Part shown: positions 13,498-35,577 of the stretch, piece by piece
Layout of the letters: every line of letters starts with the position of its first letter
Position numbering within the stretch: position 1 is the stretch's first letter
Source: Acidobacteriota bacterium
GTDB taxonomy: Bacteria; Acidobacteriota; Vicinamibacteria; Vicinamibacterales; 2-12-FULL-66-21
Direction: 5' to 3'
Assembly (NCBI GenBank): GCA_016184105.1
Contig: JACPDI010000051.1
Span: 1 to 48,596, forward strand
DNA: 48,596 nucleotides
The notes under the pieces: model-generated
The model's database searches: none
What the model was told of the DNA's origin: nothing
The model's input: only the letters and a program-made list of their open reading frames with translations
Translations under genes and position numbers: made by a program

Positions 13498-15396
13498 GTG
13501 ACACCCGCGTGGTTCCCGAAGTTGGATCGTCTCACGGCGCGTCTCGCGGCAGGCATCTCGATCCTGGTCGTGGTGCCGCTGGCCGGCGGCCTGTACCTTC
13601 TCTCCCGCTATCAATACGATCAAACCATCGCGGCCCGGCGCGCAGCCGCTGAGCTCGAGAACCGCATCCTCGAAACCTCGCTCCGCCATCAGATGCTGAC
13701 CCGGGACAGCCGCCTGATGACGCGGATCCTGGAGGAAGTCGCGCGGCATCCAGAGGTGCGCCGGGCGATGGTCATCGACCACAACGGCGTCGTCCGGCTG
13801 TCGAGCCGCGACATGGACGTGGGCGTGCGGTTCTCGCGCGATTCCCCGACCTGCCTCGTGTGCCACTCGAAGAGCCCCGGTGAGCGGGCCCGGTGGGTGC
13901 TCCTTCACGATGACGGCATCGACGTGCTCCGCTCGGTCCAGCCGATTGAGAACCGCCCCGAGTGCCACCGGTGTCACAATGCCGCGGCCAAGTTGAACGG
14001 CATCCTCATCATGGATGTGTCCCTCGCGCCCATCCAGGCCAAGGCGCGGAAAGAGCTGCAGCAGATCACGACGGCCACTATCGCCTTGACCTTCGTCCTG
14101 CTCGCGGGCGTCGGACTGCATCTCCGCCGGGTCGTGCTCTCCCGCCTTGGCAGGCTGAGCCGCGCGGCCCGCGCCGTCGCGGCGGGCGCGTTCGGCCAGC
14201 GGATCGATCCCGGGGGCAACGATGTGATCGCCTCGCTGGCGACCGACTTCAACCACATGGCGGATGCCGCCTCGTCGCTCATCGAAGACGTCAAGGGGCG
14301 CGAGCAGCAGCTCGCCGGCGTGCTCAACAGCCTCGATGACGGCCTGGTGGTGCTGGACCGCAACTTCCAGGTGGTGGCGGCGAACCGTTCCATCGCGAGC
14401 CGGCTGTGCGCGTACCCCGAGACGCTCCGCGGCCGCAACTGTCGCGACGCCGTGGGGCACGCGCTGCCGTGCCGCGAGGATCCGGAGTGCCCGACCGCGC
14501 GGTGCCTGTCCACGGGCAAGCTGCAGCGCGCGACCTACGGGCTCCCGTCGGGCTCGAACGGCAAGGGGCGCGTCCACGAGGTGTACGCCTCGCCGGTGTT
14601 CGACGACAACGGCTCGGTGACCCAGGTGGTGGAGGTGTGGCGCGACATCACCGATCGGGTGCGCGAAGAGGAGCGCCTGGCGGAGATCGAGCGGATGTCG
14701 TCGCTCGGCGTGCTCGCCTCCGGCCTGTCGCACGAAGTGAACACGCCGCTCGCCTCGACGCTCACGTGCGCGGAGGCGATTCTCGATCAGCTCGAGGGGG
14801 CGGAGCTGGCCGCGTGCGAGCCGGTCACGATGGACGCGATTCGCGAGAGCGCGGCCACGATTCGCGACCAGGTGCTGCGCTGCCGCCGGATCACCGACCG
14901 CTTCCTCCGTTTCGCGCGCGGCATCCCTCCGGCCATCGAACCGATCGACCTCCTGGAGGCCGTGCGCAACGTCATGGAGCTGGCGCGTCCGACCGCCCGT
15001 GAAGCGGGCGTCGAGCTGGTGCTCGACGGCGACGGCCCGATCCCGGTCGTCACCGCCAACACCGAAGTCGTCCAGCACGTCGTGCTCAACCTGCTCGTCA
15101 ACGCGATCCAGTCTTTCGAGGCGGGAGGCGGGCGCGTGACCGCGCGGTTCGCCGTCGATGCTGATGCCATTCGCCTGCAGATCCGAGACAATGGCTGCGG
15201 CATCCCGATGGATATCCAGAAGCACCTGTTCGAGCCGTTCCGCACGCAGAAGCCGCGCGGCACGGGCATGGGGCTGTTCCTGTCGCGCACCTTCATGCGC
15301 CGGTTCAACGGCGAGGTGCGCCTCGTGGACAGCGCCCCGGGCCGCGGGTCGTGCATCGAGGTGGTGTTTCCGCGATCGAGCCGCGAAGCCGAATGA
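13498..15396 (+). CDS. sensor histidine kinase with two-haem c-type periplasmic domain
   Basis: A 632-residue membrane kinase. The GTG at 13498 follows a GGGAGAG ribosome site; the longer frame upstream lacks any. Order: TM1 (about 17-36), periplasmic domain (37-188) carrying two CXXCH motifs, C119-H123 and C156-H160, TM2 (190-209), HAMP (210-262), PAS (270-385), HisKA with H412 in GLSHEVNTPLAS, and HATPase ending in the G-x-G box KPRGTGMGLFLS. CXXCH motifs outside the membrane bind c-type haem covalently, so this is probably a redox or gas sensor. The PAS domain has a cysteine group (C304, C315, C325, C331, C336) that could hold an Fe-S cluster or zinc. It is followed 3 bp later by its sigma-54 response regulator and then the cytochrome operon it most likely controls. 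Confidence 0.92.
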   Translation: MTPAWFPKLDRLTARLAAGISILVVVPLAGGLYLLSRYQYDQTIAARRAAAELENRILETSLRHQMLTRDSRLMTRILEEVARHPEVRRAMVIDHNGVVRLSSRDMDVGVRFSRDSPTCLVCHSKSPGERARWVLLHDDGIDVLRSVQPIENRPECHRCHNAAAKLNGILIMDVSLAPIQAKARKELQQITTATIALTFVLLAGVGLHLRRVVLSRLGRLSRAARAVAAGAFGQRIDPGGNDVIASLATDFNHMADAASSLIEDVKGREQQLAGVLNSLDDGLVVLDRNFQVVAANRSIASRLCAYPETLRGRNCRDAVGHALPCREDPECPTARCLSTGKLQRATYGLPSGSNGKGRVHEVYASPVFDDNGSVTQVVEVWRDITDRVREEERLAEIERMSSLGVLASGLSHEVNTPLASTLTCAEAILDQLEGAELAACEPVTMDAIRESAATIRDQVLRCRRITDRFLRFARGIPPAIEPIDLLEAVRNVMELARPTAREAGVELVLDGDGPIPVVTANTEVVQHVVLNLLVNAIQSFEAGGGRVTARFAVDADAIRLQIRDNGCGIPMDIQKHLFEPFRTQKPRGTGMGLFLSRTFMRRFNGEVRLVDSAPGRGSCIEVVFPRSSREAE

Positions 15397-15399
15397 GCC

Positions 15400-16833
15400 A
15401 TGCCCAACAAGAACACCCGCATTCTGCTGGTCGATGACGACACGACCTTCCGTCGCGTGATGGACACGGAGCTGACGCGCCGGGGCTACAAGGTCGTGGC
15501 GGTGGCCTCCGGAGCCGAGGCGCTCGAACAGGCGCCGCGCGCCAACGCGGACGTCACGCTGCTGGACCTGCGGCTGCCGGACATGGACGGCATCGAGGTG
15601 CTGAAGCGGCTGCAGGAGCGCAACACCCCGAGTGCGGTCGTCGTGCTGACGGCGCACGGCACGATCGACACGGCCATCCAGGCGATCCGCCTCGGCGCGC
15701 ACGATTATCTCGAGAAGCCCTGCCCGATTGCGAAGCTCGAGATGGCCATCCAGAAGACCTGCGAGCACGAGCGGCTGGTCAAGCGGCAGCGCGTCCTCGA
15801 AGATGGCTACGCGGCGCCGAACGTCGCGCCAGGACTGGTCGGGGCCAGCCCCGCGTTCGTGAAGCTGATGGACAACGTCGCCCGGATTGCGAGGGCCGGT
15901 GCAACCACCCTCGTACTGGGGGAGACCGGCGTCGGCAAGGAGGTGGTCGCGGCGCTGCTGCACGCGCAGAGCCCCCGCGGCGACGCACCGTTTGTCGTCG
16001 TCGACTGCGCATCGCTGCACGAAGAACTGCTGCAGAGCGAGATTTTCGGCCACGAGCGCGGCGCATTCACCGGCGCCAACCGCCTGAAGCACGGGCTGTT
16101 CGAAGTGGCCAGCGGCGGCACGATCTTCCTCGATGAAGTCGGCGACATCAGCCCCGACGTCCAGGCCAAGCTTCTGCGCGTCCTCGAAACCGGCCGCTTC
16201 CGCCGGCTGGGGGGGACCGACGAAATCTCGGTGGACGTTCGCATCATCGCCGCCACCAACCGCGACCTCCGGTCGGCGATCTCACGCGGCCATTTCCGGG
16301 AGGACCTGTTCTACCGCCTCGCCACGTTCGTCGTGGAGATCCCGCCGCTGCGCGAGCGCCCGGAGGATATCCGGCTGCTCGTCGAGCACTACGCCGCGCA
16401 GCTCAACCAGCGGTTCTCGCTCGACAAGCGGGTGGGGCCCGAGGCCATGGACGCCCTCCTGCGCCATTCCTGGCCCGGCAACGTCCGTGAACTGATTCAC
16501 GTGCTGGAGCAGGCCGTGGTGCTCAGCGACGACGACGAGATCGGGCGTGAGGATCTCCCGCCGCCAATTCGCGGCGTGAGGGCCGAGGCCGCGGCCCCGC
16601 CGGAAGAAGGAAGGGAAGAAGGAAGGGAAGAAGAAAACCTGACGCTGCGCGAAGTGCAGCGCCGGCACGTGTTCCGGGTGCTGGAGAAGGCGGCGGGCAA
16701 TCGCGCCCAGGCCGCTCGCCTGCTCGGCACGAGCGAACGCACGTTCTACCGGCTGCTCGAACGCTATCGCGGTGCATCGAATCCGCCGCCGCGAGCGAAA
16801 GTCCCTTCGTCCTCGCCCAAGCGAGAGTCCTGA
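15400..16833 (+). CDS. sigma-54-dependent response regulator, NtrC family
   Basis: A 477-residue activator. The receiver domain (1-120) has acidic D12-D13, phospho-acceptor D56 in LLDLRLPDMDG, and K in YLEKPCP. The AAA+ domain (about 145-380) has Walker A LGETGVGKE, the sigma-54 contact loop GAFTGA, Walker B GGTIFLDEVGDI and the R-finger region DLFYRLATFVVEIPPLRERPEDI. A Fis-type helix-turn-helix closes the protein (AAGNRAQAARLLGTSERTFYRLL). The linker between the last two is Glu-rich and encoded by a 12-bp tandem repeat. It partners the haem kinase directly upstream. The -24/-12 promoter 150 bp downstream is its likely target. Confidence 0.95.
   Translation: MPNKNTRILLVDDDTTFRRVMDTELTRRGYKVVAVASGAEALEQAPRANADVTLLDLRLPDMDGIEVLKRLQERNTPSAVVVLTAHGTIDTAIQAIRLGAHDYLEKPCPIAKLEMAIQKTCEHERLVKRQRVLEDGYAAPNVAPGLVGASPAFVKLMDNVARIARAGATTLVLGETGVGKEVVAALLHAQSPRGDAPFVVVDCASLHEELLQSEIFGHERGAFTGANRLKHGLFEVASGGTIFLDEVGDISPDVQAKLLRVLETGRFRRLGGTDEISVDVRIIAATNRDLRSAISRGHFREDLFYRLATFVVEIPPLRERPEDIRLLVEHYAAQLNQRFSLDKRVGPEAMDALLRHSWPGNVRELIHVLEQAVVLSDDDEIGREDLPPPIRGVRAEAAAPPEEGREEGREEENLTLREVQRRHVFRVLEKAAGNRAQAARLLGTSERTFYRLLERYRGASNPPPRAKVPSSSPKRES
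16603..16635 (+). repeat. 12-bp tandem repeat in the regulator linker
   Basis: GAAGAAGGAAGG occurs twice in full and once in part (GAAGAAGAA), encoding EEGREEGREEE between the AAA+ and DNA-binding domains. The unit length is a multiple of three, so copy changes would only lengthen or shorten the flexible linker. Confidence 0.8.
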
Positions 16834-16878
16834 CAGTTCTGACAGGCTCGCGCCCCCTGCACCTGCCAGAACTAACAG
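16830..16878. promoter_or_regulatory. paired 16-bp sites, candidate enhancer (UAS) of the sigma-54 regulator
   Basis: Site 1, CTGACAGTTCTGACAG (16830-16845), and site 2, CTGCCAGAACTAACAG (16863-16878), each consist of two CTGNCAG-type half-sites 2 bp apart. Site 2 is close to the reverse complement of site 1 (13 of 16 bases). Their centres are 33 bp apart, about three helical turns, and they lie 100-150 bp before the -24/-12 promoter. This is the usual layout of NtrC-type enhancer sites. Site 1 overlaps the stop codon of the regulator gene. A rival reading is a dispersed short repeat or weak hairpin. Confidence 0.5.
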
Positions 16879-16975
16879 GCTGCGCGCGCGTCTCCGCCTC
16901 CAGGCAAACCCCGCCACTCGCCTCTCGCGCACGTTTTCGGCCTGATTCAACGGATCGGCACACCGGCCGGGCTTG

Positions 16976-16991
16976 CGGAACGGAGGTTGCT
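16976..16991 (+). promoter_or_regulatory. sigma-54 (-24/-12) promoter of the cytochrome operon
   Basis: CGGAACGGAGGTTGCT fits the sigma-54 consensus TGGCAC-N5-TTGCW: GG at 16977-16978, GC at 16989-16990, exactly 10 bases between, and a perfect TTGCT -12 element. Transcription would begin near 17002, just before the AAGGAGG ribosome site at 17007-17013 and the ATG at 17021. The gene upstream encodes a sigma-54 activator. Confidence 0.62.
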
Positions 16992-17020
16992 CATGCGCAC
17001 GTGCAAAAGGAGGCAGAGGG

Positions 17021-17365
17021 ATGGAAGGAATGGTGGCTCTCGTCCTGGTCCTCACACTTCTGTTCGGCGGCATGATGCTGGCCCTCGTCATGGGCTACCG
17101 CGACATCGAGGAGCGTCGCGGCCTTGACGCGGCGCGGGCGGCCGGCGCGTCGCGCGCGGCAAACGCCGCGATGGTCCCCGGGTTCTTCACCGGCGCGAAG
17201 AGCGGGGCCTACGCCGTCGGTCCGGCCATTTCGTTTGACGAGATGCTGCTCACGCGTCTCGAGCAGCACGTGCAGGCCGAGCACGAGCGAGTGGCGGAGT
17301 TCGTCCACTTCCCGTCGATGGATCGGCTGTATCGCGCGTCGGATTCGCAGCTTCACGTTCACTGA
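17021..17365 (+). CDS. small single-span membrane protein, first gene of the cytochrome operon
   Basis: A 114-residue protein with one N-terminal membrane helix (MVALVLVLTLLFGGMMLALVMG) and a soluble C-terminal part rich in charged helix (FDEMLLTRLEQHVQAEHERV). No family recognised. The ATG at 17021 has a strong ribosome site AAGGAGG 7 nt upstream; a frame extended to 16973 would run through the sigma-54 promoter. As the first operon gene it may be an assembly or anchoring protein for the redox complex, but nothing in its sequence proves this. Confidence 0.72.
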   Translation: MEGMVALVLVLTLLFGGMMLALVMGYRDIEERRGLDAARAAGASRAANAAMVPGFFTGAKSGAYAVGPAISFDEMLLTRLEQHVQAEHERVAEFVHFPSMDRLYRASDSQLHVH

Positions 17366-17376
17366 TCGGAGGGCAC

Positions 17377-17880
17377 GTGACGCTCACCGCGCAGATGCAC
17401 GAAGTGCTCAAGAACGCCGAGCTGTTCCGGGGATTCACCCTGGACGGCATCTGGCGGCTGACGGCGATCGGCCGGTCGCGCGCGCTGGCCGCCGGAGATT
17501 ATCTCTTTCTCCTCGGCGACCCGGCGGAGTGCATTTACGTCGTGGCGAACGGGGCGATGGAGCTGTGCCTCCCCATGACGGTTGCCGGTGCGGTCAGGGA
17601 CGTGCGCGTGGAATCGGCCGGAGCAGGCAAGGCGCTCGGCTGGTCCGCGCTCGTGCGCCCCTACCGCTTCACACTGTCCGCGCGCGCGGCTGAAGCGGCC
17701 GTGGTCATCGGCTTTCCGCGCGCAGACCTTCAGGTGCTGTTCGACGCAGCGCCCGACCTCGGAAAGTGCTTTCTTGGAAATCTGTCGGAGCTGGTCGGCG
17801 TCCGTCTGCTCACGTTCCAGACCTTGTGGGTCCGCGAGCTGCAGCATGCGGTGCTGAACGAAGCGAACCAGCGCAGGTGA
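17377..17880 (+). CDS. cyclic-nucleotide-binding-fold protein without DNA-binding domain
   Basis: A 167-residue protein that reads as a single Crp-type cNMP-binding beta-barrel: LKNAELFRGFTLDGIWRLTA, then ALAAGDYLFLLGDPAECIYVVANGAMELCL, GKALGWSAL and VVIGFPRADLQVLFDAAPDL. The normal phosphate-binding GE-R-x-x-L cassette is replaced by GKALGWSALVRPYRF, so cAMP binding is doubtful. There is no helix-turn-helix. GTG start at 17377 after GGAGGG. It lies inside the redox operon, so it may sense a ligand or regulate complex activity in the cytoplasm. Start, fold and lack of HTH are seen; the role is inference. Confidence 0.75.
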   Translation: MTLTAQMHEVLKNAELFRGFTLDGIWRLTAIGRSRALAAGDYLFLLGDPAECIYVVANGAMELCLPMTVAGAVRDVRVESAGAGKALGWSALVRPYRFTLSARAAEAAVVIGFPRADLQVLFDAAPDLGKCFLGNLSELVGVRLLTFQTLWVRELQHAVLNEANQRR

Positions 17881-17896
17881 CACAGGAGCCGACGCC

Positions 17897-18433
17897 GTGT
17901 CCATAGACGAAGGGCTCAATCCGAAACGGCGCCTGGTCCTCGGCGTCCTCGCGATCGCGGTGGCGACCGCCGGCTTCAACGCGGGCCGGTTCGTCCTGCG
18001 GCCGACCACCCGGATCGCGCAGCCGATCCAGTTCAATCACCAGAAGCACGTCAAGGACGTCGGCCTCGAGTGCTCGACGTGCCACGAGCACTACACCACG
18101 AGCGAGCACTCCGGCCTGCCGTCGCTGGCGGTGTGCCAGGGCTGCCACTCGGAGCCGCTCACCAAGTCCGCCGAAGAACAGAAGCTGCTGAAGCTGGCGG
18201 CGAGCGAGCGCCAGCCCGCGTTCCGCAAGCTGTTTCGCATGGCCGACCACGTGCGCTACTCGCACCGCCGGCACGTCGCGATCGGCGGCATCGCGTGCGA
18301 CACGTGCCACGGCGCCATCGCGGACACGACGACTCCTCCGCCCTCCCCGCTGGTGCGGATCACCATGGACACGTGCACGGGGTGCCACGCCGAGCGTGGC
18401 GTCAAGACCGATTGCACGCACTGTCATCGCTGA
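17897..18433 (+). CDS. pentahaem c-type cytochrome (QrcA/ActA-like)
   Basis: A 178-residue protein with an N-terminal membrane anchor (about 11-34) and five CXXCH motifs: CSTCH (59-63), CQGCH (80-84), CDTCH, CTGCH and CTHCH near the C-terminus. Distal histidines in FNHQKH and YSHRRHV are typical of cytochrome c7/c3-like domains. It precedes molybdopterin-type, Fe-S and NrfD-type genes in the same order as qrcABCD, where the cytochrome subunit exchanges electrons with periplasmic carriers. It is probably periplasmic, tethered to the inner membrane. Start GTG 17897, 16 bp after the cNMP-fold gene. Confidence 0.9.
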   Translation: MSIDEGLNPKRRLVLGVLAIAVATAGFNAGRFVLRPTTRIAQPIQFNHQKHVKDVGLECSTCHEHYTTSEHSGLPSLAVCQGCHSEPLTKSAEEQKLLKLAASERQPAFRKLFRMADHVRYSHRRHVAIGGIACDTCHGAIADTTTPPPSPLVRITMDTCTGCHAERGVKTDCTHCHR

Positions 18434-18446
18434 GGGAGGAACACCG

Positions 18447-20774
18447 ATGTCGATGACGCGACGAGGTTTTCTGTTCGGTACGGCGGGCGCGGGTGTCGGG
18501 CTCGGGCTCGGGGCATTGTCCCACGAGTTCCCTCTCCCATCGCCCCAGTTCGGGCCCGAGTGGCAACCTGGCGCTGAAACCTTCGTGGCGTCCACCTGCG
18601 TGCTGTGCCCCGCCCACTGCGGGATCAAGGCGAGGCTGGTGGACGGCGCGCTGACCCGGATCGACGGCAACCCGTTGCACCCCGTGAGCCAGGGGGGGCT
18701 GTGCCCCAAGGGGCGCGCGGGCATCCAGCTCGCCTATCACCCGGCGCGCCTGAAGGGACCGGTCGAACGCGTCGGGCCGCCCGGATCCGATCGATTCGTG
18801 CCGATCTCGTGGGATGCCGCGCTCGATCGCGTTGCCGCGGCGCTGCGCGCTGCCCAGGCGGCACACCAGGCAGGCTCGGTGGAATGGCTCGTCGGAGACG
18901 CACCGGGCGTCGTCGGTGAGCTGATCGCGGCGTTCTGCCATGCGTACGGCACCGATCGGATCACCGTGGACGATTACCGCGACGGCTCGGCCGACGTGAT
19001 GCGCCTCTGCCAGGGAATCGCGGCGCCGCCGGCGTTCGATCTGTTGTCGTCGGATCTCGTCGTCTCCTTCGGCGCGGCGCTGTCGGAGGCGTGGGCGGCG
19101 CTGCCGCTGGCCGCGAGAGCGCGCGAGGCCGCGGGGCGGCGCTGGGTGCAGGTTGACGTCCGTCTCTCGCGCACGGCGGTCAGCGCGGACGAATGGATCG
19201 CGGTTCGGCCCGGCACGTACGGCACGCTCGCGCTGGGGCTCGCCTACCTGCTCGCCAAGGAAGGACTCTACGACGCCGAATTCGTCTCGAGCCGGGTCTC
19301 CGGCTGGGAAGACTGGAGCGACCAGGGAGGGACGCACACGGGATTCCGATCGCTCGTCTTGAGGCACGGGGCGCCGGACAACGTCTCGCGCATCACCGGG
19401 GTGCCGGTGGCGCGACTCATCCAGCTCGCCAAAGCCTTCGGCACCGCCCAGCGGCCGGTGGCGATCTGGGACCACGCGGTCAGCTGGCGTCGCGGGGGCC
19501 TGTCGGACGCGCTCGCGATCCACGCGCTCAACGTGCTTCGCGGCGGCCTCAATCGCCCTGGAGGAGTGCTGGTCCAGGCGCCGGTCGCGCTGCCCGGCCC
19601 GCTTGACGGCTTCGACCGCGGCGCCGACCTGTCGCGCCGGCCACTCACCTCCGCCGCGTGGCCAGGCGAGCCCGGCGGCGACGCAGCGCGTGCGGCCCAG
19701 GTGCTGTTCCTCTACCAGTCGAACCCGGTCGCTTCGGCAGCGCGCGCAGACGAGGCCCGGCGCGCGCTCGAGCGCGTGCCGATGGTCGTGTCGTTCTCGC
19801 CGTTTCTCGACGAGAGCGCGCGCTACGCGCACCTCGTGCTCCCCGATCACACGTATCTCGAGCGCTGGCAGGATGCCCCGGCGCCGGCTGCGGTGGCGTT
19901 CCCCGTATGGGGAGTCGTGCGCCCGGTGATCGCGCCGCTGCAGGACACGCGCGCCAGCGGCGACGTCATTCTTGGCCTGGCCTCCCGCCTGGGCGGCAGT
20001 GTCAAGGCGCGTCTTCCCTGGGCATCGCTCGAGGAGATCGTGCGCCGGCGCGGCGTCGCGCTCGCGGGGGCGCAGCGTGGAAGCGCCTTCGTCGAGCCGT
20101 TCCGCCAGGGCGAGTTGCGCGAGCTGGAGAGCCGCGGCTGGTGGCTGCCCCACGGCGTGCCGGCCGAGGAGTACTGGCAGACGATCCTCGACTCCGGCGG
20201 CTGGTTCGATCCGATCTACGACTACCAGGATCGCAGCGCCGTCACGCAACACGCCGACGGCCGGGTGTGGATCTTCCCGCCCGAAGCAAGACGACGTCTT
20301 GCGAAGTCCGGCGAGCCCCTGACGGAGGGGTTCCTGCCGGCAACGGCCGAACCTTCCGAGATGCCGGCCGGGGACAAGACGTTCCCGCTACGGCTGGTTC
20401 CCTTCCGCGTCCTCACGCTCGCCTCGGGCGGAACGCCGCTGATGCCCTGGCTGCTCGAGCATATCGGGGTCCTGGCCGGCAACGCGTGGGAGACCTGGGC
20501 CGAGCTGAATCCGGAAACCGCCCGCGAGCTGGGGCTGCATTCCGGCCAGCGTGTGCGGGTCGAATCGGAACGCGGCGCGTTCGAGGCGACGGTGCGCGTC
20601 TTTGCCGGCGCGCAGCCCGGCGTCGTGAACGTGCCGTACGGACTCCACACGCGCGTGCGCGGATGGGGAGAGGCGCCGGCTGCCAACCCGCTCGTTGCGG
20701 TGGGTCCGGCGCAGGACATGGTCGCCGGTCTTCCCGACTGGTACTCGACACGCGTCCGGCTCACGCCGGCTTGA
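18447..20774 (+). CDS. molybdopterin-oxidoreductase-family catalytic-type subunit (QrcB/ActB-like)
   Basis: A 775-residue protein with a twin-arginine signal (MTRRGFLFGTAG, so exported folded) and an N-terminal 4Fe-4S site C-x2-C-x3-C-x26-C in CVLCPAHCG... to LCPKGRAG. The body carries the molybdopterin-binding folds (PISWDAALDRVAAAL, SSDLVVSFGAALSEAW, LFLYQSNPVASAA) and the C-terminal dinucleotide-binding domain (ETARELGLHSGQRVRVESE). A Cys in MRLCQGIAAPP lies near where a metal ligand would be, but the related QrcB subunits are reported to lack molybdenum, so catalysis is uncertain. ATG at 18447 after GGGAGGA. It is followed 8 bp later by the Fe-S subunit. Confidence 0.9.
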   Translation: MSMTRRGFLFGTAGAGVGLGLGALSHEFPLPSPQFGPEWQPGAETFVASTCVLCPAHCGIKARLVDGALTRIDGNPLHPVSQGGLCPKGRAGIQLAYHPARLKGPVERVGPPGSDRFVPISWDAALDRVAAALRAAQAAHQAGSVEWLVGDAPGVVGELIAAFCHAYGTDRITVDDYRDGSADVMRLCQGIAAPPAFDLLSSDLVVSFGAALSEAWAALPLAARAREAAGRRWVQVDVRLSRTAVSADEWIAVRPGTYGTLALGLAYLLAKEGLYDAEFVSSRVSGWEDWSDQGGTHTGFRSLVLRHGAPDNVSRITGVPVARLIQLAKAFGTAQRPVAIWDHAVSWRRGGLSDALAIHALNVLRGGLNRPGGVLVQAPVALPGPLDGFDRGADLSRRPLTSAAWPGEPGGDAARAAQVLFLYQSNPVASAARADEARRALERVPMVVSFSPFLDESARYAHLVLPDHTYLERWQDAPAPAAVAFPVWGVVRPVIAPLQDTRASGDVILGLASRLGGSVKARLPWASLEEIVRRRGVALAGAQRGSAFVEPFRQGELRELESRGWWLPHGVPAEEYWQTILDSGGWFDPIYDYQDRSAVTQHADGRVWIFPPEARRRLAKSGEPLTEGFLPATAEPSEMPAGDKTFPLRLVPFRVLTLASGGTPLMPWLLEHIGVLAGNAWETWAELNPETARELGLHSGQRVRVESERGAFEATVRVFAGAQPGVVNVPYGLHTRVRGWGEAPAANPLVAVGPAQDMVAGLPDWYSTRVRLTPA

Positions 20775-20782
20775 GGACAGCC

Positions 20783-21466
20783 ATGCCGCGATGGGGAATG
20801 GTGATCGACCTCGACAAGTGCAACGGCTGCCAGGCGTGCGAAGTGGCGTGCCGATCGGAAAACAACATCGCCGTCGGCGGGCCGCAGGCGGCCGGCGAGA
20901 GCCGCACCATTTCGTGGATGCGCGTGCAGACGGAGGTCGAGGGCGAGTGGCCGAACCTGCGGGCCCGGTTCGTGCCGCAGCCGTGCATGCACTGCGACCG
21001 CCCGCCGTGCACGCTGGTCTGCCCCGTGCAGGCGACCTCGCGCGATTCGGAAGGCATCATCAGTCAAATCTACGCGCGGTGCATCGGCTGCCGGTACTGC
21101 GCGAACGCCTGCCCGTACACGGTGAAGTACTTCAACTGGCGGCGGCCATCCTATCCGGGCTCCACCGTCGCGGGGCTGAACCCTGACGTGTCGCTGCGCC
21201 CGGTCGGCGTCATCGAGAAGTGCACGTTCTGCCACCACCGCCTGCAGAAGGCGCGTGACGTCGCGCGGGCCGAGAAACGCCCGTTGCGGGAGGCGGATTA
21301 CGTGCCGGCCTGCAGTGAGAGCTGCCCCACCGGCGCGATCGTCTTCGGGGATCTCGACGATCCGGATCACCGGGTGGCGCAGCTGGCGCGCGATCCGCGC
21401 GCGTTTCGTCTCCACGAAGACCTCGGGACTCAGCCCAAGGTCTATTACCTGGCGGAGCAGGACTGA
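20783..21466 (+). CDS. four-cluster ferredoxin-like subunit (PsrB/QrcC type)
   Basis: A 227-residue Fe-S protein with sixteen cysteines set for four 4Fe-4S clusters: CNGCQACEVAC, CMHCDRPPCTLVCP, CIGCRYCANACP, and CTFCHH plus CSESCP. This is the standard electron wire of PsrB/NrfC/DmsB subunits that links a catalytic-type subunit with an NrfD membrane subunit. No signal peptide of its own is seen, so it is probably co-exported with the Tat-targeted partner. ATG at 20783. The next gene starts 1 bp after its stop. Confidence 0.95.
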   Translation: MPRWGMVIDLDKCNGCQACEVACRSENNIAVGGPQAAGESRTISWMRVQTEVEGEWPNLRARFVPQPCMHCDRPPCTLVCPVQATSRDSEGIISQIYARCIGCRYCANACPYTVKYFNWRRPSYPGSTVAGLNPDVSLRPVGVIEKCTFCHHRLQKARDVARAEKRPLREADYVPACSESCPTGAIVFGDLDDPDHRVAQLARDPRAFRLHEDLGTQPKVYYLAEQD

Positions 21467-21467
21467 C

Positions 21468-22820
21468 GTGACTGATCTCGAGATCGTTTCCCGTCTGCCG
21501 CAGGACGAACGCGTGTTGCTCATGCCGCTCGTGCGCACGACGAAGACCTTCTGGCGATGGGCGGCCGTGATGGCGGCCATCTCGCTCTGGGGGCTCTTCG
21601 CCTACGCGTACCAGTTGAGGAACGGGCTGGGCGCAACCGGGTTGAACACGCCGGAGTACTGGGGCATCTACATCATCTGCTTCGTGTTCTTCATCGGCAT
21701 CTCGCACGCCGGCACGCTCATCTCCGCGATTCTTCGCGTCGCCAACGCGGAATGGCGCCGTTCGATCACCCGATCCGCCGAATTCATCACGGTGCTGGTG
21801 ATCGGCTTCGGCGCGATCCAGCCGGTGCTGGACCTGGGAAGGCCCGACCGCGTGCTGAACGTGATGCTGCACTCGCAGCCGTTCTCGCCGTTGCTCTGGG
21901 ACGTGATGAGCATCGGCCTCTACTTCACGGCGAGCAGCGTCTACCTCTACGTGCCGATGATCCCCGACCTCGCACGCATCCGCGACCTGGGCCTGCGCCC
22001 GCGGCTGCTCTACTGGTTCCTGGCGATCGGGTACCACGACACGCCGGCGGCCCGGCACACGCTCGAGCGCCTGATTTCCGTCCTCGCGGTGGCCGTGATC
22101 CCGATCGCCGTGTCGGTGCACACGGTGATCGGCTGGATCTTCGCCCTCACGCTCAGACCCATGTGGCACAGCGCGATCTTCGGGCCCTACTTCGTCATCG
22201 GGGCCATCTTCTCCGGCATCGCCGCCCTGATCATCGCGATGGCGATTCTCAGGCGCGTCTACCGGCTGGAGGCCTACTTCAAGGACATCCACTTCAATCA
22301 CATGGGGCTCCTGCTGCTCGTGATGTCGATCCTGTGGTTCTACTTCACGTTTGCCGAGCACCTGACGGTCTGGTACGGCGGCGAGGAGGCGGAGCTGGCC
22401 ACCCTGTACTCGAAGCTGTACGGCGCGTTCTGGTTTCCGTTCTGGCTGATGTTCGCGACCTGCTTCGTCATCCCGTTCGGGCTGATGGCGCGCGCGAAGA
22501 CCCGCAACGTCCCGGGAACCGTCATCGCGTCGGTGGCCGTGGTGATCGGCATGTGGCTGGAGCGCTTCAACATCGTCGTGCCCACTTCCCTGCACCCGCG
22601 CGGAGAGGTCGCCATCGCGCACTACTGGCCGTCGTGGGTCGAGCTGTCGATCATGGCCGGGACGTTTGCCGGGTTCGTGCTCGTCTACATGATCGCCACG
22701 AAGTTCTTCCCCATCGTGTCGATCTGGGAGATCAAGGAAGGCCGCGAGAAGTCCATCGAGGAAGTCACCGAACGCGTCTCCGAATATCTGCCGGACGATC
22801 TGGAGGCGGTGGCGTTATGA
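21468..22820 (+). CDS. NrfD/PsrC-family quinone-interacting membrane subunit (QrcD-like)
   Basis: A 450-residue polytopic inner-membrane protein with about ten helices, for example WWAAVMAAISLWGLFAYAY-like TM1, GIYIICFVFFIGISHAGTLI, AEFITVLVIGFGAIQPVLDL, ERLISVLAVAVIPIAVSVHT, FGPYFVIGAIFSGIAALIIA and LLLLVMSILWFYFTFAEHLT. The GISHAGTLISA helix is a hallmark of the family. NrfD-type subunits exchange electrons (and often protons) with menaquinone. GTG at 21468 is used, right after the Fe-S gene stop. It overlaps the next gene by ATGA. Confidence 0.93.
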   Translation: MTDLEIVSRLPQDERVLLMPLVRTTKTFWRWAAVMAAISLWGLFAYAYQLRNGLGATGLNTPEYWGIYIICFVFFIGISHAGTLISAILRVANAEWRRSITRSAEFITVLVIGFGAIQPVLDLGRPDRVLNVMLHSQPFSPLLWDVMSIGLYFTASSVYLYVPMIPDLARIRDLGLRPRLLYWFLAIGYHDTPAARHTLERLISVLAVAVIPIAVSVHTVIGWIFALTLRPMWHSAIFGPYFVIGAIFSGIAALIIAMAILRRVYRLEAYFKDIHFNHMGLLLLVMSILWFYFTFAEHLTVWYGGEEAELATLYSKLYGAFWFPFWLMFATCFVIPFGLMARAKTRNVPGTVIASVAVVIGMWLERFNIVVPTSLHPRGEVAIAHYWPSWVELSIMAGTFAGFVLVYMIATKFFPIVSIWEIKEGREKSIEEVTERVSEYLPDDLEAVAL

Positions 22821-24025
22821 ACAGGCGAGTGGCACTCATCGTCCTGGCGACGGCGGTGTGGGGCGCCGCGATGGCGGCGAGCGCGCGAGTGGCCGACGAC
22901 CCGATGAGCGACGGGAATCCGTTCAAGGGTCGCGACATCTTCGTGCGGAAGGGGTGTGTCAGTTGTCATTCGATCTGGGGCAACGGCGGATCGCTCGGGC
23001 CTGACATCACCGTCGCGGTCGCCGGCAAGACGTGGGACGAGCTGGTCGGCGATTTCTGGAATCACACGCCGCGGATGATCGATGAAGTCAGCGCGCGCGG
23101 GTATCCGTGGCCCTCGCTCGACGCGCAGGAGATGGCCGACGTCCTGAGCTATCTCTACTACCTGCGGCTGTTCGACGAGCCGGGAAACGCCGTCCGCGGC
23201 GCCGACACGTTCGCGCGGCTGGAGTGCGGCAGCTGCCACACGCTCGGCGGGCGCGGCGGGAACACCGCGGGTCCGCTGGACCGGTTTGGCGCGTATCCCT
23301 CTCCCACCCCGCTCGCCCAGGCCATGTGGAATGCCGGACCGCGGATGCAGCAGGAGCAGCTGCGCCGCGGGAGAGACATTCCGCAGTTCACCGGCCACGA
23401 GATGGCCGATCTCCAGGCCTACATTCGCTCGGAAGGGCGTCGCGCGGGACGCGAGGTGGACCTGCAGCCGTTGCCGAGCCCGGGCCGCGGCGCCGAGGTG
23501 TACCGGCGCAAGCAATGCGGCACGTGTCACGACAGCCGCGGCGGGCGCGCCCCGGACATCACGCGGGCGGCCCTGTCGAAGACCGCGTCGGAGATCACGG
23601 GACTGCTCTGGAACCACAGCTACGCGATGGGCGCGATGATGCGCGCGCGCGGCGTGCCGTTCCCCCACTTCAGCGGCAGCGACCTCTCGGATCTGGTCGC
23701 GTACCTGTACTTCCGCGGCTACCTCGGCGACGAAGGGGTCGCCACGAGGGGCGCGGCGGTGTTCAAGAACAAGGGGTGCGCCGGCTGTCACGGCGCCGGG
23801 ATCGCCGGAGCGCCTGACCTCGCCTCAGCGCTGAAGCGCGCGGACCGCCCCGGCCTTGCCGCCGCGATGTGGAATCACGCCCCGCAGATGCATCGCCTGA
23901 TGGCGGAGAAAGCGCCGTTCTGGCCCAAGTTCGAGCCAGGCGACATGCGTGATCTGGCCGCGTACCTCCGCCGCCTTGCAACCTCGCCGGAGAACGCGGC
24001 CCGAAGTGGAAAGTCGAAGTCGTAG
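22817..24025 (+). CDS. four-domain (tetrahaem) periplasmic cytochrome c
   Basis: A 402-residue exported protein (signal peptide within the first ~22 residues) built from four consecutive monohaem cytochrome c domains, each with one CXXCH: CVSCH, CGSCH, CGTCH and CAGCH. Each is followed by a pattern W-N-H/G-x-P-x-M (FWNHTPRM, MWNAGPRM, LWNHSYAM, MWNHAPQM), where the methionine is a candidate axial ligand; the repeat shows internal duplication. It starts at the ATGA overlapping the NrfD gene, so translation is coupled. It probably carries electrons across the periplasm between the membrane complex and the decahaem conduit. Confidence 0.9.
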   Translation: MNRRVALIVLATAVWGAAMAASARVADDPMSDGNPFKGRDIFVRKGCVSCHSIWGNGGSLGPDITVAVAGKTWDELVGDFWNHTPRMIDEVSARGYPWPSLDAQEMADVLSYLYYLRLFDEPGNAVRGADTFARLECGSCHTLGGRGGNTAGPLDRFGAYPSPTPLAQAMWNAGPRMQQEQLRRGRDIPQFTGHEMADLQAYIRSEGRRAGREVDLQPLPSPGRGAEVYRRKQCGTCHDSRGGRAPDITRAALSKTASEITGLLWNHSYAMGAMMRARGVPFPHFSGSDLSDLVAYLYFRGYLGDEGVATRGAAVFKNKGCAGCHGAGIAGAPDLASALKRADRPGLAAAMWNHAPQMHRLMAEKAPFWPKFEPGDMRDLAAYLRRLATSPENAARSGKSKS

Positions 24026-24047
24026 AGCACGTGTGAAGGAGGCCGAT

Positions 24048-24995
24048 ATGCGCCGTGCCATTCCCGGAGTGTTCCTGAGTGCGGTCGTGATCGCGTGGCT
24101 GGCCGCCTCGGGGTGGGTCCTCACGGCGTCCGCCACGCCCGCCCAGCAGGCGGCAGCGCCCGAAACGGCAGGAGGAACCTACGCCGGAACCGAGGTGTGC
24201 CTCACCTGCCATACCGAAAAAGCGGACAGCCTGAAGGGCACGCCGCACGGGCGCGCGTCGAATCCGCGCAGCCCGCTGGCCGGACAAGGATGCGAAGCGT
24301 GCCACGGCCCCGGCAAGGCCCACGCCGAGGCCGGAGACGCGACGCTCATCCGGCGGTTCGGCAACGGCGGCCTGGCGCCACGCGCCTCCGCCGAAGTCTG
24401 CACGGCCTGCCACGTCCGCGGCACCCATGCCCTCTGGACCGGGAGCCAGCACGAGCAGCGCAACGTCGGGTGCGTCACGTGCCACAGCGTGCACAGCCCC
24501 CGCGGTGACAAGCAGATCAAGGCGGCCACGCAGCCGGAGCTGTGCGGCGGCTGTCACCGGCAGATGGCGAACAAGTTTTATCGCTTCAATCACATGCCCG
24601 TGCGCGAGGGCAAGATGGTCTGCTCGTCGTGCCACAACCCGCACGGCTCGAGCAACGTCAAGCTGCTCAAGGCGGGGACGACGGTCGACCAGGCGTGCAC
24701 GAGCTGTCACGCGGAAAAGCGCGGCCCGTATCTCTGGGAGCACGCGCCGGTGACCAATTCCTGCGTGACGTGTCACGACCCGCACGGATCGAACAACGAG
24801 CGGCTGCTCGTGGCCAAGGTGCCCTTCCTGTGCCAGAGGTGCCACGTCACGGCCCGGCACCCGCCGACGGTCTACGAGGGCTTCGCCTTGAGGAACACCA
24901 CAAGCGCCAACCGGCTGATCGGCTCCGGCTGCGTCGTCTGCCACGTGCAAATCCACGGGTCGAACGCGCCGTCCGGGAAGTACTTCCATCGCTAG
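24048..24995 (+). CDS. decahaem c-type cytochrome, DmsE/MtrA family
   Basis: A 315-residue exported cytochrome with ten CXXCH motifs: CLTCH, CEACH, CTACH, CVTCH, CGGCH, CSSCH, CTSCH, CVTCH, CQRCH and CVVCH. The spacing and the repeated NPHGS/DPHGSNN and CHxxxH elements match the DmsE/MtrA/PioA family. These proteins fill the lumen of an MtrB-type barrel and carry electrons through the outer membrane. The N-terminus has a signal peptide (cleavage near ATPAQQ). A GAAGGAGG ribosome site supports ATG 24048. The barrel gene follows after 16 bp. Confidence 0.94.
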   Translation: MRRAIPGVFLSAVVIAWLAASGWVLTASATPAQQAAAPETAGGTYAGTEVCLTCHTEKADSLKGTPHGRASNPRSPLAGQGCEACHGPGKAHAEAGDATLIRRFGNGGLAPRASAEVCTACHVRGTHALWTGSQHEQRNVGCVTCHSVHSPRGDKQIKAATQPELCGGCHRQMANKFYRFNHMPVREGKMVCSSCHNPHGSSNVKLLKAGTTVDQACTSCHAEKRGPYLWEHAPVTNSCVTCHDPHGSNNERLLVAKVPFLCQRCHVTARHPPTVYEGFALRNTTSANRLIGSGCVVCHVQIHGSNAPSGKYFHR

Positions 24996-25011
24996 TGCGA
25001 GGAGGATTGCG

Positions 25012-27312
25012 ATGCGTAACACACTGACGATGGCCATTGCCGGATCCCTGCTGGCGTCCGTGGCGTCGGCGCAGCAGCCGCCGCCGCCGCCGGCGTTCAT
25101 CCCCACCGCAGGCTGGGCGGGCTCGATCGACTTCGGCGCGCGGCTGAACGCGGTGACGGGCGACCAGGCGCGCTTCGAACGGTTCGGCGACGTGCGCGAC
25201 GGCGCGTCCACCCGGATCACCCTCGGCAAGGAGACCGCGCAGTATGCCTTCAGCGCGGAGATTTCCAACATCGGGTACAGAGACCAGCGATACGAGGCGA
25301 GCTACGATCGCCAGGGGCGGGTGAAATTCACGTTCCTGTGGGACTCCACCCCGTTCAACTACGCCTACAACTCCTCGACGCCGTGGGTCGAGCAGTCTCC
25401 CGGCGTGTTCACGCTCGATCGAACGGCGCGGCTGCTGGTGCAGAACCGGGCGCCGGGGGTGGTTGGCGTCGCGGCCAGTGCGGCGCAGCTCGCGACCCCG
25501 TCGATTTTCCGGGACCTCGCCTCGCCGCTCGACATCCAGTCGCGGCGCGACACGGCGAGCTTCGCCGGGACGTTGATGGCCACCCGCGAGCTGGCCATCA
25601 ACTTCTCGTTCGCGTCGACCAACAGGACCGGGCACGAGCCGAAAGGGGCCTCGTTCGGGTTCAACGTGGCGAGCCAGGTGGCGGCCCCGATCGACACCCG
25701 CACCAACGACCTCTCGGCCGCCGCCGAGTGGCTTGGCCGGCAGGCGATGTTCCGCGTCGCGTGGGACGGCTCCTGGTTCAGGAACGGCATCCATGAACTG
25801 CTGGTCGACAACCCGGTGCGAGCCGATGACACCAGTCCTATCGACTACAGCGGGTATGCGAGCGGGCGAGGGGCGGCGCAGAGCCGCTTCGCGGCGGCTC
25901 CAGACAACAGCCTCAATACGATCAGCGCGACGGGACTCTACAAGCTGCCGGGACACAGCAACGTGAACGGCACGGTCTCGTTCGCGACCATGCGGCAGAA
26001 CGACACGCTGATCCCGTGGACGAGCAGCAAGGTGATCGACAGCCCGGCGGTGTTCGCGCTGTTCCCGGGGCTCGCGAGCCTGCCGCGGAGCACGGCGGAC
26101 GCCAAGGTGGAAGCGGTCAACGCCCTGCTCACCTACACCACGAGGCCGAACCGGTTCTTCGGCTTCACGACGCGCTACCGGTACAACGACCATCGGAACC
26201 TGACGCCCATGTTCGACGGCACCGACTACGTCCGCATGGACGCGGTCCCGGAGGAAACCGGCGGTCCGACCCGCCCGTTCAACGTCAGGCAGAGCACGTT
26301 CGACGTGAACGCCAGCTTCAACGTGGCGCCGCGCACGGACCTCCGGCTCGGCTACACGCTGGACGACGCCAAGCGGACGGGGCGGGAACTCAGCGACAGC
26401 ACGGACTACACGTTCCGCGCCACGCTCGACACGGTGGGCGGGCCGTACGTCATGGTGCGCCTGATTTACGAGAACTCGCATCGGGTCGGCACCGGCCTCT
26501 CGCTGGAGACGCTCGAGGAGGCCGGTTTCCAGCCGGGCCTGCGGACCTACGACGTCGCCGATCGCGACCGGGACCGTGGCTGGCTGGTGGTCACGCTCAC
26601 CCCGGCGTCCATCTTCGACGTCAGCTTCTCGCTCGCGGCCGCCCGGGATCGATACCGCGGCGACGGCCACCAGTTCGGGCTGCTGGACAACGACAACACC
26701 GTCTTCAACGTCACGGCCAACCTCCGGCCGGTCGAGAAGGTGCTGCTCGGCGCCAACTACGGCCGCGATTCGTACGACGCGCTGATGAAGGCGCGCAACG
26801 CGAGCCCGCTGGGCACCGACTACGGGAGCTGGATCGATCCGAACCGCGACTGGCTGCTGGACCAGGACGAGAAGGTCGACAACGTGAGCGTGTACCTCGA
26901 CCTGCTCCAGGCGATCGCGCGCACCGACATCCGCCTGAGTTACGACTACAGCGACTCGAACAACGCGTACATCCACAGCGGCCCGCGCATCCAGGAGCTG
27001 ATGACGTCCACGGCGTTCAGGCCGGGGGCGCCCAGGCCGTGCACGGCGCCGCTCACGTCCTGCTTCGAGCCGCTGCCGACCATTACCAACACGTGGCAGC
27101 GCCTGAAGGCGGACGTGACCTACATGTTCAGCCGCAGCGCGGGCCTCGGGTTCGGCTACTGGTTCGAGAAGTTCGACGTCAGCGATTACGCGACCGTCGA
27201 TTTGCAACCCGGCACACCCCGGATCGACTACCTCGGCGTCATCGGCACCGGATACGGGAACCGGCCCTACAAGGCGAACACGGGATTCTTCCGGATCCTC
27301 TATCTGTTCTGA
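25012..27312 (+). CDS. MtrB/PioB-family outer-membrane beta-barrel
   Basis: A 766-residue outer-membrane porin with a signal peptide (MRNTLTMAIAGSLLASVASA), many amphipathic beta strands with alternating aromatic residues, and a C-terminal aromatic strand ending in FFRILYLF. Its place directly after the decahaem gene and its length fit the decahaem-associated MtrB/PioB family, which sheathes the cytochrome wire. The N-terminal CXXC motif known from Shewanella-type MtrB is absent; the only close cysteine pair is late, in RPCTAPLTSC, probably in a surface loop. PioB-like barrels also work without an MtrC partner, and none is encoded here. Confidence 0.88.
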   Translation: MRNTLTMAIAGSLLASVASAQQPPPPPAFIPTAGWAGSIDFGARLNAVTGDQARFERFGDVRDGASTRITLGKETAQYAFSAEISNIGYRDQRYEASYDRQGRVKFTFLWDSTPFNYAYNSSTPWVEQSPGVFTLDRTARLLVQNRAPGVVGVAASAAQLATPSIFRDLASPLDIQSRRDTASFAGTLMATRELAINFSFASTNRTGHEPKGASFGFNVASQVAAPIDTRTNDLSAAAEWLGRQAMFRVAWDGSWFRNGIHELLVDNPVRADDTSPIDYSGYASGRGAAQSRFAAAPDNSLNTISATGLYKLPGHSNVNGTVSFATMRQNDTLIPWTSSKVIDSPAVFALFPGLASLPRSTADAKVEAVNALLTYTTRPNRFFGFTTRYRYNDHRNLTPMFDGTDYVRMDAVPEETGGPTRPFNVRQSTFDVNASFNVAPRTDLRLGYTLDDAKRTGRELSDSTDYTFRATLDTVGGPYVMVRLIYENSHRVGTGLSLETLEEAGFQPGLRTYDVADRDRDRGWLVVTLTPASIFDVSFSLAAARDRYRGDGHQFGLLDNDNTVFNVTANLRPVEKVLLGANYGRDSYDALMKARNASPLGTDYGSWIDPNRDWLLDQDEKVDNVSVYLDLLQAIARTDIRLSYDYSDSNNAYIHSGPRIQELMTSTAFRPGAPRPCTAPLTSCFEPLPTITNTWQRLKADVTYMFSRSAGLGFGYWFEKFDVSDYATVDLQPGTPRIDYLGVIGTGYGNRPYKANTGFFRILYLF

Positions 27313-35425: not shown

Positions 35426-35427
35426 AC

Positions 35428-35577
35428 CACGTGCGACGTGCGACGTGCCACGTGCCACGTGCCACGTGCGGCACGTGGTCGCACGTCGCACGTCGCACGT
35501 GGTCGCACGTGGTCGCACGTCGCACGTCGCACGTCGCACGTCGCACGTCGCACGTCGCACGTCGCACGTCGCACGTG
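35428..35577. repeat. 150-bp heptamer array with inverted halves
   Basis: The left part is made of GTGCGAC and GTGCCAC units (about 5), the right part of the reverse complement, with nine uninterrupted CGCACGT units at 35514-35576. The whole can fold as a long hairpin. It fills the gap between the convergent LON-domain and YpdA-like genes, and begins 3 bp after one stop codon and ends 2 bp before the other. There are no unique spacers, so it is not a CRISPR array. Confidence 0.9.

Follow-up and report, generated by a model that had tools for sequence, protein, structure and literature searches.

The site at positions 16976-16991 of the window (the whole stretch of DNA analyzed, 48,596 nucleotides) very likely represents a genuine sigma-54 promoter. 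The switch of which it forms part, consisting of a kinase with haem motifs, an activator, paired sites and the promoter itself, is kept beside an electron-transfer operon at related loci of two phyla (Table 1). Judging from the sequence comparisons described below, we are confident that this promoter is driven by the adjacent activator, an assessment that does not extend to the signal. The more specific scheme, in which a periplasmic dihaem kinase gates the sigma-54 promoter such that a quinone-linked electron-transfer chain would be produced only when the periplasm is at a set redox state, and in which these parts are kept as one cassette across Acidobacteriota and Planctomycetota, with an activator site written over the stop codon of the activator gene, has in our estimate about an even chance of being correct.

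Table 1. Features of the regulatory region and of the electron-transfer operon, in coordinates of the window
Feature	Position	Strand	Remarks
Sensor histidine kinase	13498-15396 (start codon approximate)	+	periplasmic Cache/PAS-like domain with CLVCH and CHRCH
NtrC-type response regulator	15400-16833	+	receiver, Sigma54_activat with GAFTGA, Fis-type HTH
Activator site 1 (predicted), palindrome CCTGACAGTTCTGACAGG	16829-16846	+	overlaps activator stop TGA 16831-16833
Activator site 2 (predicted), CCTGCCAGAACTAACAGG	16862-16879	+	33 bp from site 1
Sigma-54 promoter (predicted)	16976-16991	+	-24 CGGAACG, -12 TTGCT; extrapolated RNA start 17002; 10/12, GG/GC/TTGC invariant in 9 loci
Ribosome-binding site AAGGAGG, first operon gene	17007-17013	+	
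Small protein, 114 aa, no family match	17021-17365	+	
cNMP-binding-domain protein	17377-17880	+	
QrcA-like multihaem cytochrome, 5 CXXCH	17897-18433	+	
QrcB-like molybdopterin-family subunit	18447-20774	+	
4Fe-4S protein	20783-21466	+	
NrfD/ActC-like membrane subunit	21468-22820	+	
Cytochrome with four CXXCH	22817-24025	+	
Decahaem cytochrome, DmsE family	24048-24995	+	
MtrB/PioB-type outer-membrane barrel	25012-27312	+	

The letters of the promoter site, read on the plus strand, are CGGAACGGAGGTTGCT, with GG at 16977-16978 and GC at 16989-16990 enclosing ten nucleotides and TTGCT at 16987-16991. Agreement with TGGCACG-N4-TTGCW (equivalent to TGGCACGNNNNTTGCW) extends to 10 of the 12 positions, with GG and GC intact. 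The initial annotation, which had described a GG-N10-GC site with a perfect TTGCT -12 element, thus read the letters correctly and needs one amendment, namely that the perfect match is limited to the -12 element; the -24 element reads CGGAACG in place of TGGCACG. Sites were scored by a 12-position consensus with GG and GC obligatory, in place of a weight matrix, and genome-wide motif counts were obtained by pattern searches. Under this scheme, 16976-16991 is the sole site with a score of at least 10 on both strands of the window, the runner-up reaching 9, in line with the earlier prediction that it would rank first. Counting 12 nt from the C of the -12 element places the extrapolated RNA start at 17002, 5 nt ahead of AAGGAGG, in agreement with the position proposed previously; the ATG of the first operon gene is at 17021. 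The genome encodes an intact RpoN (479 aa, with the box ARRTIAKYREELKIP), which the annotation had named as a prerequisite, and the gene just upstream of the site indeed encodes a matching activator, as the domains of the response regulator indicate. Four typical attributes of sigma-54 promoters are present: the consensus, rpoN, an AAA+ activator with GAFTGA, and predicted upstream sites approximately 80-200 bp before the start. Taken alone, the promoter site is only suggestive, given that the chance of a score of at least 10 in the 187-bp leader is p=0.017 under a first-order Markov model and 0.002 against the native background. Similarly, the 4.24-Mb genome contains 6 copies of GGNACGNNNNTTGCW, compared to 13 of the reversed control pattern; the motif is rare yet shows no genome-wide enrichment and by itself proves little.

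Orthologs of the locus were sought in genomes of the same order and by a scan with the kinase alignment, which yielded nine readable leaders: those of the window, G013 (= L035), G015, G113 (= L032), L031, L033 and L037 from Acidobacteriota, and those of L034 and L036 from Planctomycetota. Because the leader spacing varies, MAFFT gave no leader alignment, and the motifs were anchored by position. A GG-N10-GC site scoring 9-11 of 12 (just 9/12 in L031) precedes the first operon gene in all nine loci, with GG, GC, TTGC and the C of ACG invariant throughout. The extrapolated leader RNA comprises 17-20 nt in the window and three relatives from the same order; in the five remaining loci it ranges from 15 to 55 nt. 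The combined p over the nine loci is 3e-14 or 4e-10, depending on the background model, when the loci are treated as independent; given that they are related, these values overstate independence and should be taken as an indication rather than an exact probability. The regulators L005-L019 of relatives look like paralogs that lack this arrangement. At a paralogous ActC/QrcB-like operon in the same genome (G000:C58:7029-11264, L053), examined as a possible additional target, we found neither activator sites nor a sigma-54 site scoring at least 10.

Transcription of the operon could have sources other than this promoter. The regulator gene and the operon lie on the same strand with a gap of 187 bp, and no terminator-like site or T-run was detected between them, so that basal read-through is possible. 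The earlier claim that the operon is strictly inducible accordingly holds as far as a sigma-54 promoter with its activator is concerned, whereas the word "strictly" goes too far. Expression of the operon might even result mainly from read-through of the kinase-regulator pair or from an unrecognized promoter of the sigma-70 family, with the sigma-54 site contributing only a part, the more so as many promoters of uncommon phyla escape simple consensus scans. However, such scans failed to reveal a sigma-70-like site either in the leader or inside the operon, and both the sigma-54 site and the activator sites are conserved in the nine loci. We consider this alternative unlikely, and it is in any case compatible with the main explanation, activation of the sigma-54 promoter by the adjacent regulator.

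Upstream of the promoter, we identified two predicted activator sites which, like the two c-type haem motifs of the kinase, had gone unmentioned in the initial annotation. Their centres are at -164.5 and -131.5 relative to the extrapolated start. Site 1 holds the only zero-mismatch CTGNCAGNNCTGNCAG of the genome, and site 2 is weak, matching the cross-species consensus at 9 of 12 positions. A near-match at G000:C65:19415 lies within an open frame and was attributed to chance. The palindromes are present in all nine loci, with the consensus CTGACA-N3/4-TGTCAG (16 bp in the window and the three relatives from its order, 15 bp elsewhere), which was derived from the same nine loci in which the palindromes were counted. 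Site 1 overlaps the regulator's own TGA stop in eight of them. The distance between the centres is 32-34 bp in seven loci; L034 has distances of 21 and 67 bp, and L036 one of 67 bp. These values approximate 3, 2 and 6 helical turns, which suggests that the sites face roughly one side of the DNA. The distances between the sites and the promoter vary widely and the spacers have no detectable similarity across the loci, as expected of sites that work through a DNA loop; given that the spacers cannot be aligned, the promoter and site motifs are islands of conservation in otherwise diverged DNA.

The inverted repeats at 16829-16879 could, in principle, represent an RNA hairpin (a terminator or attenuator) behind the regulator gene rather than protein-binding sites, given that the arms are 83% complementary and the predicted RNA fold has -23 kcal/mol. 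However, no T-run is present, any two copies of one palindrome pair with each other, and the near-whole helical turns that separate the copies in L034 and L036 (21 and 67 bp) are better suited to a protein on DNA; we regard the hairpin as very improbable. Conservation across phyla, combined with the paired activator sites and the intact RpoN, strongly supports the reading of 16976-16991 as the promoter of the operon. That the GG-N10-GC match is a mere coincidence in G+C-rich DNA, as the six genome-wide occurrences (no more than for the reversed control) and the p of up to 0.017 in the leader alone might suggest, is scarcely credible considering the presence of the site in 9/9 orthologous leaders, with the combined p given above, next to a pair of activator sites and an activator with GAFTGA.

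The sensor segment of the kinase (13588-14127) contains two CXXCH motifs, both of which are conserved among nine aligned kinases; this alignment includes L030, whose regulator gene is cut off by the contig end, and leaves out L031. The Mcp40H-20_sensor profile matches all nine kinases, and a profile search retrieved the Geobacter haem sensors 3b47 (E=2e-6) and 3b42. The AlphaFold model (mean pLDDT 79.5) is similar to sensor domains of the WalK type and, to a lesser degree, to 3b42. With CXXCH motifs in a periplasmic Cache/PAS domain, the kinase is a candidate member of the c-type haem Cache/PAS sensors (Mcp40H/sCache_heme), in which case haem would be covalently attached to these motifs and would respond to redox state or gas. 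Geobacter sensors of this type with solved structures carry one haem, compared to the two motifs found here. Redox sensing has been proposed for c-type haem domains of the Cache/PAS type (PMC8396549), and NO sensing for such domains fused to signalling modules (PMC12889525).

The elements that can be read from the sequences, namely the promoter motif, the paired sites, the protein domains, RpoN and the conservation in nine loci, suggest a tentative mechanism. The kinase would respond to a redox or gas signal in the periplasm, probably via c-type haem, and would phosphorylate the response regulator, which would then bind the palindromes and reach the promoter by looping approximately 100 bp of DNA. 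The GAFTGA loop of the regulator, together with ATP hydrolysis, would open the promoter kept closed by the RpoN polymerase, and transcription of the nine-gene unit (17021-27312) would start from 16976-16991; without the activator, the operon would be expected to stay silent.

All nine genes of the operon share one strand, no gap between them exceeds 22 nt, and they are probably co-transcribed. In several relatives, too, the gene for the 114-aa protein directly follows the promoter. The Qrc-like proteins fall short of the respective equivalog cut-offs (81.7 of 180 bits for QrcA, 288.5 of 440 for QrcB and 38.8 of 570 for QrcD). The adjoining decahaem cytochrome and MtrB/PioB barrel correspond to a porin-cytochrome conduit of the Mtr/Pio type, with scores of 263.9 for TIGR03508 (above 192.2), 235.1 for TIGR03509 (just below 240.05) and 295.6 for PF11854 (above 23). 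In this unit, an ActC/QrcAB-like membrane complex is combined with an MtrAB-like outer-membrane conduit, an organization that suggests a direct route from quinone to the outside. The conduit is not a constant part of the unit, since in G113, L036 and L037 the decahaem-barrel pair does not come after the four-CXXCH cytochrome (the contig continues past this point); a decahaem relative sits at the opposite end of the G113 contig. Nor is the tie of the switch to electron transfer absolute: G013 (L035, G013:C37) keeps the kinase, the regulator, the activator sites, the promoter, the small gene and the cNMP gene, the rest of the operon is missing, and no QrcB-like subunit was found anywhere in this 98%-complete genome. 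Elsewhere in the window, heptamer tandem repeats (CCACGTG and GTCGCAC) occupy 35427-35576, and frames of G000:C65 (L028) contain similar repeat-encoded peptides.

A single motif is thereby extended to a complete, testable circuit (sensor, activator, sites, promoter and targets) that would govern electron transfer in bacteria that are poorly cultured. The circuit suggests periplasmic redox state, NO and O2 as candidate signals, and the palindrome, as a predicted binding motif, allows further genomes to be screened. In the literature searched (open-access text, few terms), we found no description of the cassette of haem kinase, regulator and sites or of this locus.

Sigma-54 control of cytochrome-based electron transport is already described in Desulfovibrio (PMC4641369) and Geobacter (PMC2725144). 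In Desulfovibrio vulgaris, where sigma-54 promoters and activator sites were predicted by genome comparison, the gene for the sigma-54 activator DVU3142 likewise adjoins an operon for cytochrome-based membrane electron transport, ohc (PMC4641369). DVU3142 is, however, divergently transcribed and targets ohcBAC, whereas at the present locus the kinase and regulator genes precede, on the same strand, an ActC/QrcAB-like target unit equipped with a decahaem-barrel conduit; the likeness drawn here is one of gene arrangement. In Geobacter sulfurreducens, RpoN promoters, with the consensus TTGGCACGGTTTTTGCT, are similarly linked to cytochromes, in that case for extracellular electron transfer (PMC2725144), but they belong to a global regulon in a different phylum, in contrast to the one dedicated local switch predicted here. 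The sensor of the kinase shares a periplasmic Cache/PAS-like domain with CXXCH with GSU0582, GSU0935, Mcp40H and sCache_heme (PMC8396549, PMC12889525); GSU0582 and GSU0935, however, are chemotaxis receptors with one haem, whereas the protein encoded here is a histidine kinase with a second CXXCH. Finally, the operon has an ActC-like NrfD subunit in common with Alternative complex III and, below the equivalog cut-offs, QrcA- and QrcB-like subunits in common with Qrc, and differs from both in that a decahaem cytochrome and an MtrB/PioB barrel belong to the same unit as these components.
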